Source of the DNA: Treponema sp. | GTDB lineage: Bacteria; Spirochaetota; Spirochaetia; Treponematales; Treponemataceae | DNA: 64,000 nucleotides | Reading direction: 5' to 3' | NCBI GenBank assembly: GCA_017449265.1 | Contig: JAFSJW010000049.1 | Span: 84,466-148,465, forward strand | Part shown: piece by piece, positions 1 through 32,142 of the stretch | How the letters are laid out: the number at the start of each line of letters is the position of its first letter | Numbering within the stretch: the stretch's first letter is position 1 | The notes under the pieces: model-generated | What the model saw: only the letters and a program-made list of their open reading frames with translations | Database searches by the model: none | Told to the model about the DNA's origin: nothing | Translations under genes and position numbers: made by a program

Positions 1-635
1 ATTATCTCTTCGGCTGCATCCCAGTTCAGTCTGAAATATTGGTAGCTGATTTTTTCTTCGTTTTTTTTGATTTCAACTATTGCGAAAGTTTGCGGAACAT
101 TTCCTCGCGGAAGAGAGCAGCTTCCAGGATTTAAGAGCAATGTTCTGCTTTTGGTCTGAGCATTTGCAATGTGCGTGTGTCCGTAAAAAACCGCATCAGC
201 TTTTTTTTCGGATGAGATTTTTTTAAGCTCGCTTGTTCCGATGTAAACATTGTATTTGTGACCATGTGTCATAAAGATTTTTTTTCCGCAAACAACAGCT
301 TCTTTGTCAGTCGGAACAAATATCAGATGGCGTTCCCGCGCTAGAATCGTTGCCGTGGAGTTGTCGCCGTTTCCTTTCACGAAGAAAATAACAGGCGGAA
401 GAAAGTGGAGGATATAACTTGTTTCGATTGCCGAGCAGAGATCCGTTATACCATCGCCGCAAAAACACAATGCGTCGCATATTTTTCCGAAATTCTGCAA
501 AATACTGAAAAAATTGACTTTGTTGCCATGTGAGTCCGATATTACAAGTATTTTTGCAAAATCTTTCTCCGCAAGCTCTTTTATTTTGTCAAAAGAACCG
601 AGGGAGAAATCTTTTTGCTGTTTAATTTCAATCAT
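1..635 (-). CDS. YfcE/MJ0936-type metallophosphoesterase (3' end cut by window edge)
   Basis: Calcineurin-like phosphodiesterase of the small YfcE/MJ0936 family, probably cytosolic and metal dependent. Reading back from the ATG at 635, about 211 residues are visible before the window ends, so the C-terminus is missing. Visible motifs, in order: SDSHGN (about residues 33-38), CGDG (about 60-63), KGNGDN, MTHGHKYN and GHTH, followed by LNPGS; these supply the two-metal Asp/His/Asn ligands of the superfamily. An extra stretch of about 28 residues precedes the first strand. It starts 15 bases after the lipoprotein stop and probably shares its transcript. The Shine-Dalgarno is weak. The natural substrate cannot be told from sequence. 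Confidence 0.87.
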   Translation of the reverse strand, partial: MIEIKQQKDFSLGSFDKIKELAEKDFAKILVISDSHGNKVNFFSILQNFGKICDALCFCGDGITDLCSAIETSYILHFLPPVIFFVKGNGDNSTATILARERHLIFVPTDKEAVVCGKKIFMTHGHKYNVYIGTSELKKISSEKKADAVFYGHTHIANAQTKSRTLLLNPGSCSLPRGNVPQTFAIVEIKKNEEKISYQYFRLNWDAAEEI

Positions 636-650
636 CTGAAAAAATCTTGC

Positions 651-1427
651 CTATTCAAATACAAAATGATTTATTGACTGCAGATTTGTTTCTGAGTCTA
701 CATAATGGCGCACGATTCTGTTTTTTCCTGTCAGTCCCTGAACGAATTTCAAAAGGTCTGACTCCGGTTTCAGCGGTTCTTTCAAATTGAGAATTGCCTG
801 GATAGTGTTACTCAGAAGCAAGTCCGGGCTGAAATTTGGAATAAAGTCCGTTACTTCGGAATCAATTGTGGCTGTTTTGTGGGCGTAGTCCAAGACAAAA
901 GTGGCAGTTGACTCAGTTCCAAGAAAATTATCATCTTGCGGAAAAAGCGAAATGACAGGGTAGTTTACGGAATGAGTTTCAGACGCATCCTCAATTTTTG
1001 AGAGGGCAAGGTGTGTTCCCTCCGGTGCGCCCACAATAATCATTCCGATAAGGTCTTTTCCGCTTATGAGGTCTCCGAGCTTTGATATTCGCGGTTTTCC
1101 AGAAACGAGGAAATCATCTGGGTAAGTGTAGACAGAAACAAGACCTTTTTTTTCAGGCGTTTCAATACCATAGTTCTTGTTCAGCGTTGAGATTATTTTT
1201 CCTGCTTCCTCCGGTTTGTTGTAGCCGTAGCCAAGAACAAGGGCGATTGTTTTTCCCTCAAAGTTAGGAGTGCTTGGTTTGTCGGCAGTTTTTGTTTTTT
1301 TAGGGTTGCTTTCAGAAACAACATCTGTAAGCTGTCTGTCAGAATGAGCTTTTTCTTTTTTGCAGCCGAAAGAAAAAAGACAGATAAAAGAAGCGAATAT
1401 TATAAAGTGTTTTGATTTAATAAGCAT
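651..1427 (-). CDS. Putative periplasmic lipoprotein of unknown function
   Basis: 258 residues. The N-terminus has a basic start, a hydrophobic core and a Cys at about residue 22 (SFGC), so it is probably a lipoprotein. After a Lys/Ser/Thr-rich linker comes an alpha/beta domain starting GKTIALVLGYG; GMIIVGAPEGTHLAL and YPVISLFPQDD look like strand-turn elements of a periplasmic-binding-protein fold, in the manner of the DUF3798 lipoproteins, but I cannot assign the family firmly. There is no ABC permease nearby. A TAAAAT box lies six bases before the ATG and no Shine-Dalgarno is visible, so the mRNA may be leaderless. It precedes the phosphoesterase with a 15-base gap. Confidence 0.72.
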   Translation of the reverse strand: MLIKSKHFIIFASFICLFSFGCKKEKAHSDRQLTDVVSESNPKKTKTADKPSTPNFEGKTIALVLGYGYNKPEEAGKIISTLNKNYGIETPEKKGLVSVYTYPDDFLVSGKPRISKLGDLISGKDLIGMIIVGAPEGTHLALSKIEDASETHSVNYPVISLFPQDDNFLGTESTATFVLDYAHKTATIDSEVTDFIPNFSPDLLLSNTIQAILNLKEPLKPESDLLKFVQGLTGKNRIVRHYVDSETNLQSINHFVFE

Positions 1428-1433
1428 AAGAAT

Positions 1434-1439
1434 ATTTTA
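1434..1439 (-). promoter_or_regulatory. Candidate -10 box of the lipoprotein gene (leaderless arrangement)
   Basis: TAAAAT on the minus strand ends six bases from the ATG at 1427, so a transcript would begin at about the A of the start codon. No -35 hexamer is convincing. Confidence 0.35.
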
Positions 1440-1442
1440 GCA

Positions 1443-1497
1443 AAAGAGAAAAAAACAAAAAAGACCTGTGAAAAAAACTGATGAGTTTTATCACAGG
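1443..1497 (-). terminator. Rho-independent terminator after the FecR gene
   Basis: On the minus strand a perfect CCTGTGA/TCACAGG stem, extended by A/T pairs (1465-1497), is followed by a long T-rich run (1443-1462). It lies 45 bases after the stop of the FecR-domain gene and separates that operon from the next lipoprotein gene. Confidence 0.8.
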
Positions 1498-1541
1498 CCG
1501 TTTGATTTTTAACGCAGCTTTTTTTGATGCGATAATTTTTA

Positions 1542-2519
1542 TTAATTACCCCAATTGCCAACGTTTATGGTGACACCGCCAGCTGTGGCGGCAGCTGAAC
1601 TACCACCTGATGATGCGTTCGTAGTTGGAGCGGATTCTTTTCCGCCGCTTCCTGAAGGCATCTGACCGTCTTGAACTGAATGGTGAGTGAATGAAGTTGC
1701 TGGAGGAACTTCTGCGATGTGAACGATTTCTGCTACAGGACCAGCGTTCGCCGTTGTTTTGAATGCAAGTGCCTGATTAGAAAACTTTGCGTTAGGAGTT
1801 ATATAACTTCCGCCGGCATTGAGATTCGTTTCCTGACCAGCAGTTACATAGTAACCACCTCTCGAAGGAGTTCCGAAAGAATTGTTTTGTGCAGGTGCTG
1901 GCGTAGAAACTACCGGTGCTGGGGCTCCTGCTCCAGCTGCATCTCCGGCGGCTCCTTCCGAAGAATCGATTGGAGCCGCAGTTTCCAAAGGTGCGACTTC
2001 TGAAGTGTCGGATGAGAGGATAATTGGCTTTTGATTTGACTGTGGTATGCACTCGGCTGTTCCGTCCAATGCAATCATTGACATAGACCTGTAGCCTACA
2101 CCTGTTTTGATTACAGTTCCGCGGACAGAAGCCGTTGCGACCGATGTTCTTACCTGATAGTTTGCGCGTCTGTCCTCTGTCTTCTTAATGCTTGATTTAA
2201 GCGAACCTGAATCAAGGAACACGCTTGTTGTATCCTGATTGCCTTTTTCGGAAAGCTGCTCGATAGTCATTCTTGAGAGCGGTGCAACGGTCAATGTTGA
2301 ATCTTCGTTCGCGCTTTTGATATTAAGAACGAGCTGGGATTTGAATCCTGTCTGAATTACAGCTCCTGCTTTTAATACATCTCCAGCAGCGAGAGCGACC
2401 CATTCCGAGCCTTTCTGTCTTTCTGCTTTTCCAGAAACAGAAACGACCTTTGCTTCGATGGCAGCTACGCCCGAGAGTGCGAGACATGCCAGAATAAGTG
2501 AAGAAGCTAATCTTTTCAT
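1542..2519 (-). CDS. Secreted FecR-domain protein
   Basis: 325 residues with a signal peptide (about 1-22). Residues about 23-150 form a FecR-like domain: VVSVSGKAERQ, GDVLKAGAVIQTGFKSQLVL and VRTSVATASVRGTVIKTG are typical. The rest is low-complexity, rich in Ala/Pro/Ser/Gly, ending in a Gly/Asn tail. Classical FecR proteins signal to FecI sigma factors, but there is no transmembrane anti-sigma segment and no sigma gene here, so this is more likely one of the envelope FecR-fold proteins common in spirochaetes. Start supported by AAGGAGG seven bases upstream. Last gene of a three-gene envelope operon, followed by a strong terminator. Confidence 0.82.
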   Translation of the reverse strand: MKRLASSLILACLALSGVAAIEAKVVSVSGKAERQKGSEWVALAAGDVLKAGAVIQTGFKSQLVLNIKSANEDSTLTVAPLSRMTIEQLSEKGNQDTTSVFLDSGSLKSSIKKTEDRRANYQVRTSVATASVRGTVIKTGVGYRSMSMIALDGTAECIPQSNQKPIILSSDTSEVAPLETAAPIDSSEGAAGDAAGAGAPAPVVSTPAPAQNNSFGTPSRGGYYVTAGQETNLNAGGSYITPNAKFSNQALAFKTTANAGPVAEIVHIAEVPPATSFTHHSVQDGQMPSGSGGKESAPTTNASSGGSSAAATAGGVTINVGNWGN

Positions 2520-2541
2520 AAAGTCCTCCTTATGAATGATA

Positions 2542-3672
2542 TTAAAATGCCAGTGCGGCTTTTACTTGAATAATAGTTCTATCAATATCGGTACTGTTCA
2601 AATCGTAAAACTGACCGAATGAAGCTCCGATGGTGAAATCAGAAAACGGCCTGAAATCCGCACCGAATTTATATTGTACACCATGATGGGAACCATTGCC
2701 TATATCAAAAGCACCGTCAAGAGAGGCTGTGAGAAGAAGGTTCTCAATAGGTTTTCCTGTCATGGCAATACCGAGTTTGAGCATATTGGTGTAGTCCGGC
2801 TCGTTGTAAGAGTTGAACGCAGGGTTGTGAGTGAAGCCGATGAAATCTTCGGATGCGTAAACTCCGCATACTGAAACCGTAGTGAGTGCAGACGGGAAAA
2901 TAGTAAGCGTGAGCATAGTGAGGTTTCCTAAATCTGGCTTTCCCTCATCATACCATTTCATTCCGAGCGTTGTGTTTACGCGGTAGAATACGGAAGCTGA
3001 AACAGGACCCGTTATATCGAGAGTTCCGTAAACTCTGTTGTAAAGATTTTCAAGCGTTCTGAAAGTAGCCATTACCTGACCAGAGAGCGTATTGTCGTAA
3101 AAAAAGTTCGGCAATGTGAACGCTACATTTGAAACAATGTACTTGTCGGCAAAAGCGTAGAACAAATCTGGGTCAACTCCGACATAATCCTTTGCATTTA
3201 TCATTTTTACCGTGTTTCCGTTCAGGAAGCCTGTGTAAGCTGCGTATGCCGAAATGGAGAAACCAGGCAGCTTGTAGCGGATAAGCGCGCCGTCTGCGTT
3301 CTGAAAGAAAATAATACCTGTAAGGTCTGCGTTGGCGAATCTTCCGATGTTCACATCGAGCGCGCCTTTTGGCAATGGCTTTGTGAAATATGCTTTGAAC
3401 AAGGTGAGGTCAAGGTAATGCGTCGCGCTTGGCTCGTTCAAATCGTTCTCAAACTGATATATTCCCTCAGCGATGAAGTAATTCGTGTCGCTTTTGTTCA
3501 TCGGAGCTTTTATCCACAACGATGCGGTGTTGCCCTGATCGTAGTAGTATTTGCCGTCAGCATTCGTTTTACTGCGCGAGTTGTTTGTAAGAAGTCCGCC
3601 CCAGTCAAATGAAAACACTGGTGACAAAGATATTGAGATACAGAATGAAGCTAAAATCTTTTTATAATTCAT
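2542..3672 (-). CDS. Outer-membrane beta-barrel protein
   Basis: 376 residues with a signal peptide (about 1-21, cleavage near VFSF). The mature part has many short alternating amphipathic strands (for example LDLTLFKAYF, NVAFTLPNFF, TLGMKWYDEG, KFGADFRPF, TIGASFGQFY) and ends in AALAF with a C-terminal Phe, the usual signature of a BAM-inserted outer-membrane barrel. It may be a porin or a structural barrel; substrate unknown. Second gene of the envelope operon: its ATG lies seven bases after the upstream stop and its ribosome binding site (GAGGAG) lies inside the end of that gene. The following FecR gene starts 22 bases downstream. Confidence 0.78.
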   Translation of the reverse strand: MNYKKILASFCISISLSPVFSFDWGGLLTNNSRSKTNADGKYYYDQGNTASLWIKAPMNKSDTNYFIAEGIYQFENDLNEPSATHYLDLTLFKAYFTKPLPKGALDVNIGRFANADLTGIIFFQNADGALIRYKLPGFSISAYAAYTGFLNGNTVKMINAKDYVGVDPDLFYAFADKYIVSNVAFTLPNFFYDNTLSGQVMATFRTLENLYNRVYGTLDITGPVSASVFYRVNTTLGMKWYDEGKPDLGNLTMLTLTIFPSALTTVSVCGVYASEDFIGFTHNPAFNSYNEPDYTNMLKLGIAMTGKPIENLLLTASLDGAFDIGNGSHHGVQYKFGADFRPFSDFTIGASFGQFYDLNSTDIDRTIIQVKAALAF

Positions 3673-8046: not shown

Positions 8047-8166
8047 GACGTGTTCGGAAACATCAGTTTTCCGAACACGAACCTTAAAAGAATGCAAGTT
8101 TTGCAAGGCTTTAGCCTGAAAAACTTGACGACTTGTGAGGAAACTTAAAGAGTTTCCGAACAGGTC
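8047..8166. mobile_element. MITE-like element, full copy A
   Basis: 120-bp element with TA on its left. Three hairpins: left GTGTTCGGAAA/TTTCCGAACAC (8050-8078, perfect 11 bp); central CAAGTTTT/AAAACTTG enclosing AGGCT-TT-AGCCT (8095-8128); right GAGGAAAC/GTTTCCGAAC (about 8131-8166). The outer ends form terminal inverted repeats. Nearly identical to copy C at 32281. No coding capacity. Confidence 0.75.
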
Positions 8167-29692: not shown

Positions 29693-29754
29693 GGCAAAAC
29701 TGCGATTTCGTGCCTCCTGCACGACCGCTAACGCGGAGTTTTTATAGGAGGATT
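29693..29754 (+). promoter_or_regulatory. Shared 5' leader element, copy 1
   Basis: About 60 bases directly before the lipoprotein ATG match the leader of the thioredoxin-reductase-like gene (49574-49635) at roughly 45 of 51 core positions. Contains TCGTGC/GCACGA hairpin arms, then CGCGGAGTTTTTAT and the ribosome site GGAGGA. A TTTTGCC-GTT-GGCAAAA triloop hairpin (29683-29699) abuts it. Confidence 0.6.
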
Positions 29755-29757
29755 CTT

Positions 29758-31973
29758 ATGAAAAATTTATTTTTTCTTTTCAGAGCAGTATTATCACTCC
29801 TTGCTCTGGCACTTCCGCTTTCATGTGACTCAGGCGGCGGCGGTGGGTCGGGGGGGGTAATTCCTCTGCCAAAACTTCTGAAAATTCCGGCTCCACGAGC
29901 GTAACGATAACGATTCCAAAAACGACCTCCGCCGACGCGAACATTTTAGGCGATCTGGGGCCTGCACAGGCAAAAGACTTCCAGTATGAAATTTTCTATT
30001 CAACTAACTCTGACGGCTCGTCCCCGAGCGAATCAAAATACGCGAAGGAAGGTAAATCGGTAACATTCGAAAACGTAAAGTACGACACTTACACTTTCTT
30101 CCTTAAAATATGGGTCAGTGAGAGCAGGAATGCACTTCTTGACACGTTCAAGGTTGAAAAGACCGTCTCCGCGAGCGACCACACCGTGAATTTCCCCGAC
30201 AGAAGCTATTCCAAATACTCAAACTGGTACTTCGTAAAAACGACGGAAGAGCTTACGAGCGCGATAAACGAAATCAGCTCCAGCAATGATTACAGCTCCG
30301 AGAAAAAGGCGGTAATCTGCCTTATGGACATAGTGGAGATGAGCGGTTGGAATACGGCTATCAGCTCAATCTCGGAAAAATGCACTCTCGAAAAGAACGG
30401 CTTTAAAATTGTGGAGAAGCGTTTTGAAGTGACCGTATCGCCGTCAATCACTGGCGGAACTGTGATTGCAAGCCCCTCTGGAGGAGAGGCTGACGACACG
30501 ATTACGCTTACAGTAGAGCCTAGCGCGCACTACAAGCTGGAGTCAATCTCGTATACTGACGGCTCAACGACATCTTCGCCGATACTTAATGAGGCGACAG
30601 GAAAGTACACATTCATCATGCCGAACCATGATGTTACAGTGACACCAGTGTTCAAGCTGTATTACACGGTAACATTCCAAGATTATAATGGAGAGCAAGT
30701 GGGCGATTCTCATGGCTATTTTGAGGGCGATGAACTCACTTTTGATGACGCAAAAGCCATTCTTGCTGACTCCGTTCCGACAGGGCGCCAAATCGTCGCG
30801 TTCAAGAATACTACATCATCGCCAGTGCGTGTTTACAAGAAGGAGGGTGAGGGTGGCTTCCCGATAACATTCAACAGCACGAATTTCAGCGAGCAGAACA
30901 TTACGCTTCGGGCGTGCCTTGACTTTACATATACGAATGATACCAACTACGGATATGAGATAGCTCCTTATACTTTCGACACTCAAAAAGGAACATCTGC
31001 GAATCCATATATGATGAATTTATATGGAGCGGACACGAGAAAGCAGATTAAGATTACGATAAGCGACTATGCCTGCGCAGATCCGGACACAGGTTTGTCT
31101 ATAACTGTAGGAGGGGTTTTGAGTTCACCCTTTGACATAGAACATACGGGCGCAGTTTTTGTCGTCAAGATTTTACCGACGCTTAAAACTCGTATACCTC
31201 TAGCCACGCTGACCGTCACTGATTCTGCTACAGGTGCAACCAAGGATATTTATGTGACGGTTAAAGATAACAAAATTGGAACGAAAGCCCCTGACTCAAC
31301 TCTGGCAGTGGGCGACATCGTGTTCAACGATGGAAGCGCAAGTGCTTACGATGATTTTACCGAAACAACTCCGATGACTGCCGAGCAGAAAGCCGCCGCC
31401 GTTGCTGTTATCTTTGATGTAAGTGGCGGTAATAAGAAGGGCGTTGGATTGCAGCAGGGAACTGGCAAGGCGTGGGCGGCTAGTGACACAACTGGCTACA
31501 CCACAACCATATCTACGCTTGTCGCCACGAAGTCTAGCGGAGGCAATGCTACTGATGCCTCATTCTCATTCTCAGACCCAGTTGCAGCGGACGGAAGCGG
31601 AAGCCTTGCGAATTTTAGGGCTGCCGTGGGAGCTACAGAAGGCACACAACTCAGTGAGACTGACTATCCTGCATGGGCGTTTGTTGAGGGCTACACGACT
31701 GCGGGAATTACAGGCACTTCTTACGCGAGCGGATGGTACATGCCGAGCATACAGGAACTTTGCAAGCTGTACCAGGCGAAAACCGATGTGAATAACGCGT
31801 TGGATAAGATTGGGGTTACGAAATTAGATACTAATTACACTGGAAGGTATTTCTCGTCTAGTCAGAGCGGTTCCTTAGATACCGATGTATGGTTCGTCAA
31901 TTTCGCGGCGGGCAATTTAGGTTCTTGCGACAAGAACGAAACAAGTTATGTCTGCGTTATACGCCAGTTTTAG
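29758..31973 (+). CDS. Surface lipoprotein, frameshifted at G8; candidate DGR target with lectin-like C-terminus
   Basis: As given, translation from the ATG at 29758 (signal peptide, lipobox LPLSC) passes a G8 tract and stops at 29904. The rest is open in another frame and readable up to 31973; one extra G (or two fewer) joins them into about 738 residues. Domains: short linker; N-terminal beta domain; one InlB B-repeat-like module (FEVTVSPSITGG... to VTPVFK); a second beta region; and a C-terminal DUF1566/C-type-lectin-like domain with VGDIVFNDGSASAYDDF, GWYMPSIQELCKLYQ and the end GRYFSSSQ...VCVIRQF. That ending is what Treponema TvpA-like retroelement targets carry. An apparent GTG start at 30186 has no ribosome site; the open frame continues upstream of it. 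Confidence 0.78.
29850..29857 (+). repeat. G8 homopolymer, candidate phase-variation tract
   Basis: Eight consecutive G, a few codons after the lipobox Cys, at the exact point where the reading frame changes from signal peptide to mature protein. Slippage here would switch the protein on and off; a sequencing or assembly error is the alternative. Confidence 0.65.
31842..31973 (+). other. Candidate DGR variable region (VR)
   Basis: The last 44 codons run from GRYFSSSQ to VCVIRQF-stop. Many of the codons between the two fixed motifs end in C or T (AGC, GGT, TCC, GAT, ACC, GAT, TTC, GTC, AAT, TTC, GGC, AAT, GGT, TCT, TGC, GAC, AAC), as expected if they descend from AAC/AAT codons of a template repeat by adenine mutagenesis. 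No template repeat, Avd or reverse transcriptase was found in the window. Confidence 0.45.
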
Positions 31974-31988
31974 TACAGAACTCATCCG

Positions 31989-32142
31989 CGAGATTTTGCA
32001 AAGCAAAATCTCGGCCACCTTGTGCGAAGCACAAGGTGCGTCTGCGTTATCAGGAAGTTCTAGGGGTGGGCGCACGCACAAACGGCTTTGCCGTTTGTGG
32101 CCACCTTGCCGTAAACGGCAAGGTGCGGTTGCTTGCGAGCAA
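31989..32142. repeat. Array of perfect short-loop hairpins downstream of the candidate VR
   Basis: Four perfect 10-11-bp stems: 31989-32013 (loop AAA), 32016-32038 (loop GAA), 32077-32099 (loop TTT), 32102-32125 (loop TAAA), then a weak TTGCT/AGCAA at 32129-32142. The second and fourth share CACCTTG...CAAGGTGCG and follow the first and third across the same GGCCACC or GCCACC linker, so the array is two copies of a hairpin pair with different stems. Confidence 0.7.

Follow-up and report, generated by a model that had tools for sequence, protein, structure and literature searches.

Is the lipoprotein gene at positions 29829 to 31973 on the forward strand of the stretch examined here a remote target of a diversity-generating retroelement (DGR), and is it still being rewritten? 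The stretch, referred to as the window, is 64 kb long and was taken from a Treponema sp. genome (contig C35, positions 84466 to 148465), the assembly of which (G000) comprises 3.02 Mb in 111 contigs and is 85.7% complete. The initial annotation took the end of the gene for the variable region (VR) of a remote DGR target, with the template repeat and the reverse transcriptase outside the window. What stood of this proposal is the family: lipoproteins with an Lcl_C (DUF1566) end are DGR targets, and several paralogues in the same genome, here called own or sister genes, appear to carry the imprint of a template. It did not stand for the window's own copy, the VR of which has also changed at many sites other than template adenines.

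We lean towards the reading that the gene was a DGR target that has since drifted or been retired, and that its expression would be switched by slippage of a tract of 8 G (G8) at its start. Drift or retirement is likely the simplest reading, with a private template within the 14% of the genome that is missing as its main rival. The same genes appear to be subject to both DGR rewriting and poly-G slippage, and we propose more tentatively that 2 layers operate across the genus: one template would rewrite many dispersed lipoprotein ends, most of the genes would have a poly-G switch of their own, and the population would display changing subsets of the proteins, with the window's gene silent and drifting.

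DGRs act on Lcl_C lipoproteins across the genus

A reverse transcriptase of the type encoded in Treponema sp. RGIG1579 from goat abomasum (locus L075) was identified in 8 of the 146 genomes in our genus sample (E<=1e-30). In 7 of these 8 genomes, the gene is adjoined by an Avd gene and by an AAC/AAT-rich template, such as that in G113, NWSSSQNASNNNNAWNVWFDDGNLNNNNKNNNKSVCTVRAF; the templates in G107 and G064 give an identical peptide. The eighth genome, G070, which belongs to the same genus as the window's genome, contained 2 copies of the enzyme, one of which starts at a contig edge, and no visible template. The reverse transcriptase in one stretch of this genome (L138) was identical to that in RGIG1579.

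In 6 template-target pairs, each from a single genome, 30% to 51% of the template adenines differed, compared with 1% to 4% of the other sites. One adenine-specific target in G113 was located on a contig other than that of the cassette, and the other targets adjoin cassettes. The genus thus contains cassettes in which Avd, template and reverse transcriptase occur together and which have adenine-specific targets, and it employs these DGRs on Lcl_C lipoproteins, a remote target included. In G061 and G124, some Lcl_C places are closer to a template from a different genome than to their own, which makes unseen templates likely, and the sequences point to a likely second, unseen template in G061. 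The targets L164 and L177 in G061 were closer to the G113 template (13/82 and 10/82 non-adenine mismatches, respectively) than to that of their own genome.

Putative template imprints in the sister genes

The window's genome contained 17 Lcl_C matches, 5 of which exceeded the cut-off. The sister genes on contigs C98 and C108 differed from the G061 template at 23 of 43 and 29 of 43 adenine sites, and at 9 of 83 and 8 of 83 other sites, respectively, a fit that implies an enzyme and a template beyond the present assembly. Because the homologue of this gene in G070 directly follows the reverse transcriptase, the missing enzyme is probably located just upstream of the starts of the 2 contigs. Both contigs begin inside the gene, with the first 141 columns in common, which looks like an assembly branch. 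A cassette exchange between them, prompted by indels, was dropped as an explanation, as the pair fits the G061 template at non-adenine sites.

A second group is made up of the sister genes on C69, C17, C68, C103 and C106 and 2 genes in G070, for which a common template is indicated that was absent from all of the sequences examined. In the 21 pairwise comparisons within this group, the third codon positions differed by 0.44 upstream of the VR and by 0.13 within it, whereas positions 1 and 2 differed by 0.26 upstream and by 0.41 within the VR, and in 20 of the 21 pairs the third positions were more alike within the VR than upstream of it. For C68 and C103, third positions accounted for 11 of the 15 differences upstream, and positions 1 and 2 for 23 of the 25 differences in the VR (Fisher test, 3.5e-5). 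Ordinary coding evolution produces the reverse of this pattern. On this codon-position evidence, the VRs of the 5 sister genes read as copies of one template with adenine errors, the template being unseen and reconstructed from the sister genes themselves.

The column test by which the template was reconstructed used C69, C17, C68, C103 and the G070 genes on C235 and C130, without G070 C129, C106 and C102, which differ in length. The codon-position comparison covered 10 genes, without C98, C108, C86, C27, C94, C64, C110, C67 and the other C17 gene, and the window's gene, C63 and C102 stood outside its 21 core pairs. The gene on C63 was intermediate, with a third-position difference of 0.65 upstream and 0.42 in the VR.

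The window's copy and the search for its template

The VR equivalent in the window's gene is located between the SSSQ and VCVIRQF motifs (positions 31866 to 31949, forward strand) and aligned without gaps to the G113 template, from which it appears to have drifted. Compared with the best of 6 templates from relatives, it was changed at 24 of 41 adenine sites and at 30 of 82 other sites; its differences from these templates are accordingly far from confined to adenines. It ranked 44th of 60 Lcl_C ends by non-adenine mismatch to the nearest template. Two of the rows ranked, L043 and the lower one for L145, appear to match the pattern by chance. In a leave-one-out comparison, the non-adenine mismatches amounted to 11/34 for the window's copy versus 0/34 to 7/41 for the members of the second group. 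Compared with 9 sister genes, its third positions differed by 0.42 within the VR and by 0.50 upstream of it, a level near that expected if no copying had occurred, and none of the 53 other ends compared shared the third-position pattern of the window's copy (lowest difference 0.36).

The near-copy and the adjoining reverse transcriptase and Avd genes for which the initial annotation suggested a genome search did not turn up: by DNA similarity, the VR of the window's gene retrieved other VRs and short chance matches, and no template, from the 85.7%-complete assembly. The same held for the VR of C69, while the VR of C106 gave no template in 59 genomes and matched in a single one, its own. When the window and the compared loci were scanned without gaps and with tolerance for changes at adenines, VRs came up and no template. 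Neither a reverse transcriptase of the Lcl_C cassette type nor an Avd gene was found in the assembly, the search for Avd having been made without a positive control. Locus L024, suspected to be a template for its short frame, was rejected as a VR-like remnant.

Contig C60 (L025, 1 to 170 and 283 to 1461) holds the single reverse transcriptase recovered from the assembly, a DGR-like enzyme. An AAC/AAT-rich template adjoins it and reads as DUF6273, over the cut-off, for which reason the enzyme was rejected as the missing Lcl_C one. Contig C20 (L043, 1 to 153) opens with the same 141 bases as the C60 stretch and then ends in a stop; its start is probably the end of a target that the assembler merged with the template. 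The genome holds what reads as a second kind of DGR, one with a DUF6273 template.

It is unlikely, in our view, that a differing template in the unassembled portion of the genome still rewrites the window's gene as a live remote target, either with the C60 enzyme and a second template or with an unassembled enzyme. There is room for such a system in a genome that is 85.7% complete and in which C98 and C108 imply an enzyme and a template outside the assembly; L164 and L177 show that several template types are possible per genome, and the codons end in C or T at 12 of 14 Asn-type positions. But no template with the third-position pattern of the window's copy was present in the 60 ends or in the templates from 7 loci, no second gene had this pattern, and the start of the window's gene is out of frame.

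A G tract at the start of the genes

An AGGAGG motif resembling a ribosome-binding site (positions 29746 to 29751) precedes an ATG that opens a short frame (positions 29758 to 29904), all on the forward strand. This frame encodes a lipoprotein signal peptide, MKNLFFLFRAVLSLLALALPLSC, in which the lipobox was judged by eye, and stops soon after a G8 tract at positions 29850 to 29857. The tract, a candidate for phase variation, is the sole run of at least 7 G or C in the window, and it is traversed by both the signal-peptide frame and the body frame of the gene, which differ across it. The protein is a lipoprotein, as initially annotated, insofar as a signal peptide starts at 29758, but this signal peptide is out of frame with the body.

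The start could be read for 10 of 15 own Lcl_C genes, 7 of which contained a G8 to G10 tract within 150 nucleotides of the opening of the body frame, namely the window's gene, C63, C69, C102, C103, C106 and one of the C17 genes. No tract was present in C67, C86 and C110; C64, C68 and the other C17 gene were cut by contig ends, C27 and C94 are remnants, and C98 and C108, which start inside the gene, stood outside the survey. The enrichment was strong, with 7 genes compared with 0.13 expected in the spans examined, as calculated from 5 runs of at least 7 in 17 chosen 20-kb stretches (340 kb). All 7 genes had the upstream ATG out of frame with the body; since random frames would give this result with a probability of 0.06, this excess of out-of-frame starts is suggestive at most. 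The offset between ATG and body was 2 in 3 genes and 1 in 4 genes. Programmed frameshifting at the tract is disfavoured by these mixed offsets, which fit slippage better than one fixed shift. The long G tract in the coding start and the frame-shifted states are those of a poly-G contingency locus.

Tract and imprint occurred together in C69, C103 and C106 of the second group, and largely in C102. In other genomes, a tract was present in 5 genes of 4 genomes (L064, L071, L085, L086 and L178); the count across genomes covered 46 ends with a 5' side, 10 of which had a run, 5 of them in the own genome and 5 elsewhere. The L085 gene combined a G10 tract with the adenine pattern of the G061 template (27/43 adenine versus 20/83 other sites), and in L086 one upstream ATG was in frame with the body. 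An intact start was also identified in relatives (P0006, P0102, P0103 and P0105).

We consider it improbable that the differing frames on the two sides of the G8 tract stem from a mistake in the assembly or from simple decay of the gene, with no switch behind them. Homopolymers are error-prone, variation in tract length was not seen, and the sole near-identical protein cluster again has the 595-amino-acid form. However, the tract recurs in 7 of 10 sister starts with lengths of 8, 9 and 10 and in the 5 genes of 4 other genomes, against a background of 5 runs per 340 kb, the body of the gene is open for 714 codons, and the 4 relatives with intact starts exist.

Other G runs were observed in the own genome and in RGIG1579. 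An 807-amino-acid lipoprotein gene on C22 (L197, about 562 to 2982, minus strand) had an N-terminal part like that of the window's gene, a G9 tract and an in-frame start; no Lcl_C match was found on C22, and its G9 tract is one of the 5 control runs. Runs of G9 to G10 were also located at L198:14858, L199:7997, L208:2862 and L211:1278, near or inside open reading frames (ORFs) that by eye were of membrane type, one of the runs being non-coding. The own genome may use poly-G tracts widely. In RGIG1579, a G8 run (L075:941-948) was located just ahead of where the conserved residues of the reverse transcriptase begin, with none seen ahead of the enzyme in the other loci inspected, and this reverse transcriptase might itself be switched by the run.

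Evaluation of drift and switching

Several points weigh against a drifted target with a slipping switch. We infer both the past diversification and the slippage of the window's copy, and have seen neither. At adenine sites, the window's copy shows a weak excess of changes relative to its closest template (p 0.017), which could be caused by relaxed constraint. Its third-position differences were slightly smaller within the VR than upstream for 6 of 9 pairs, and this faint trace could be compatible with a live but distant template. Beyond the window's gene, C102 matched the second group in 6 of 7 pairs and the pair of C17 and G070 C235 did not fit, and Lcl_C places within 4% of their own template amounted to 1 of 7 non-template places in G061 and 1 of 9 in G124. 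As to the tract, ATG starts alone were weighed, and another start in the body frame could render it irrelevant.

Least probable is an ordinary Lcl_C adhesin that was never a DGR target and whose loop varies by normal evolution, as the about equal third-position differences in the VR and upstream and the many Lcl_C ends that match no template would allow, but the nearest relatives, C103, C68 and G070 C130 (0.14 to 0.21 difference at upstream positions 1 and 2), are imprinted, and positions 1 and 2 of the window's copy differ more at template-adenine sites than at other such sites (p 0.002).

On the reading of drift or retirement, the template and the enzyme of the sister genes would sit in the unassembled part of the genome, and the window's copy would have taken up template cDNA in the past and diverged since. 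Slippage would alter the length of the G tract and so switch each lipoprotein on or off, and the displayed lectin-like ends may bind other cells or host molecules. Were both layers combined in single genes, bacteria equipped with numerous DGR targets could select those to be displayed, and the drifting VRs in silent copies would be explained.

Codon endings and the hairpin

Two further features had been put forward as signs of a DGR, and neither speaks for one at the window's gene. Codons ending in C or T made up 64% of the 44 codons in the stretch and 55% of those across the ORF, and 66 of 553 ORF windows of equal length had as high a share or higher, so that the codon endings are not special to the stretch. 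The excess was confined to the Asn codons of the template inferred from the sister genes (12/14, binomial 0.017), compared with 8/15 for the other codons.

The hairpin at positions 31989 to 32013, to which no strand is assigned, is as perfect as annotated, with an 11-bp stem and a 3-nucleotide loop 15 nucleotides past the stop, but it is a copy of a dispersed genomic repeat and was rejected as a DGR signal. Its arm was present in 33 copies in the genome, versus 2 for a control, and the same pair of arms, 3 nucleotides apart, occurred 9 times; 3 of the 9 pairs were near an Lcl_C gene. A stem of 9 to 11 bp followed within 60 nucleotides of 8 of 11 own Lcl_C ends, whereas among 6 targets of relatives that match the template of their own genome, a single one was followed by a stem, and the hairpin is thus not specific to DGR target sites. 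Hairpins with the stem TGTTCGGAAA were located at window positions 8049, 22503, 32283 and 46302, those at 8049 and 32283 being identical.

Domain architecture of the window's gene

The body of the gene is open from stop to stop for its 714 codons, although the ORF caller placed the start at a GTG at 30186. Residues 82 to 157 of the ORF from 30186 match an InlB B-repeat-like domain, PF18998 (positions 30429 to 30656, forward strand), and residues 498 to 593 match Lcl_C, PF07603 (positions 31677 to 31964, forward strand; E 4.4e-7), with 30.6 bits, which is below the cut-off of 34.9 bits. The initial annotation correctly recognized this end by its fixed motifs: the last 132 bases code for GRYFSSSQ...VCVIRQF and the stop, and close the Lcl_C match.

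For the C-terminal domain (positions 31278 to 31970, forward strand), a C-type-lectin fold is predicted, as DGR variable proteins should have. The model of the last 231 residues, built from 33 sequences, had a pLDDT of 93.3 and resembles 4eps, the C-terminal domain of Legionella Lcl (8q4e) and, to a lesser degree, TvpA (2y3c). The gene thus appears to have the lectin-like end of a displayed protein that is found in DGR targets. Searches with the lipoprotein gave no match in PHROG or NCBIfam, nor in the PDB when the single sequence was used. Lcl_C ends 40% to 45% identical to that of the window's gene were observed in L062, L065, L072 and L078, which are labelled Eubacteriales or Lachnospiraceae.

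Comparison with known systems

Poly-G tracts underlie phase-variable surface genes in Neisseria and Campylobacter and are present at the tpr genes of T. pallidum. The genes described here resemble them in having at least 8 G in the coding start, out-of-frame states and membership of a gene family, and differ in that those tracts are not known to be combined with DGR VRs. The domain itself has a relative in the C-terminal domain of Legionella Lcl (8q4e), with 19% identity in the structural alignment.

As described in the available part of the source, the TvpA-type DGR of T. denticola is chromosomal and has several dispersed targets, many of them with lipoprotein signal peptides, some targets are excessively mutated in the VR, and there are strains that contain targets without a template or an enzyme (PMC4891356). 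The system in the window's genus is similar in its chromosomal location, its dispersed lipoprotein targets, its targets without template or enzyme and its over-mutated VRs. It differs in that the T. denticola targets are described there as being of the FGE-sulfatase type, here Lcl_C, while the accessory gene, HRDC-like by that description, is Avd here; that text contains none of the words homopolymer, poly, frameshift and hairpin (PMC4891356).

DUF1566 was the most common DGR target domain in one survey and is so called in another, in the portions available (PMC4159848, PMC6642488). These targets, from the human gut and other genomes, have the same domain, a C-terminal VR, several VRs per template and 4EPS as a structural relative, whereas the portions of the 2 surveys give no G tract at the start of the gene and no Treponema example of the domain. 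Among the matches listed from the open-access literature, the accessible text held no joint description of DGRs and phase variation or homopolymers for bacterial surface genes, and slippage in DGR target genes is not described in the parts consulted of PMC10053308 and PMC8987985. DUF1566 DGR targets and poly-G phase variation are each known alone, and the new point is the layer of G tracts on a family of DGR targets.
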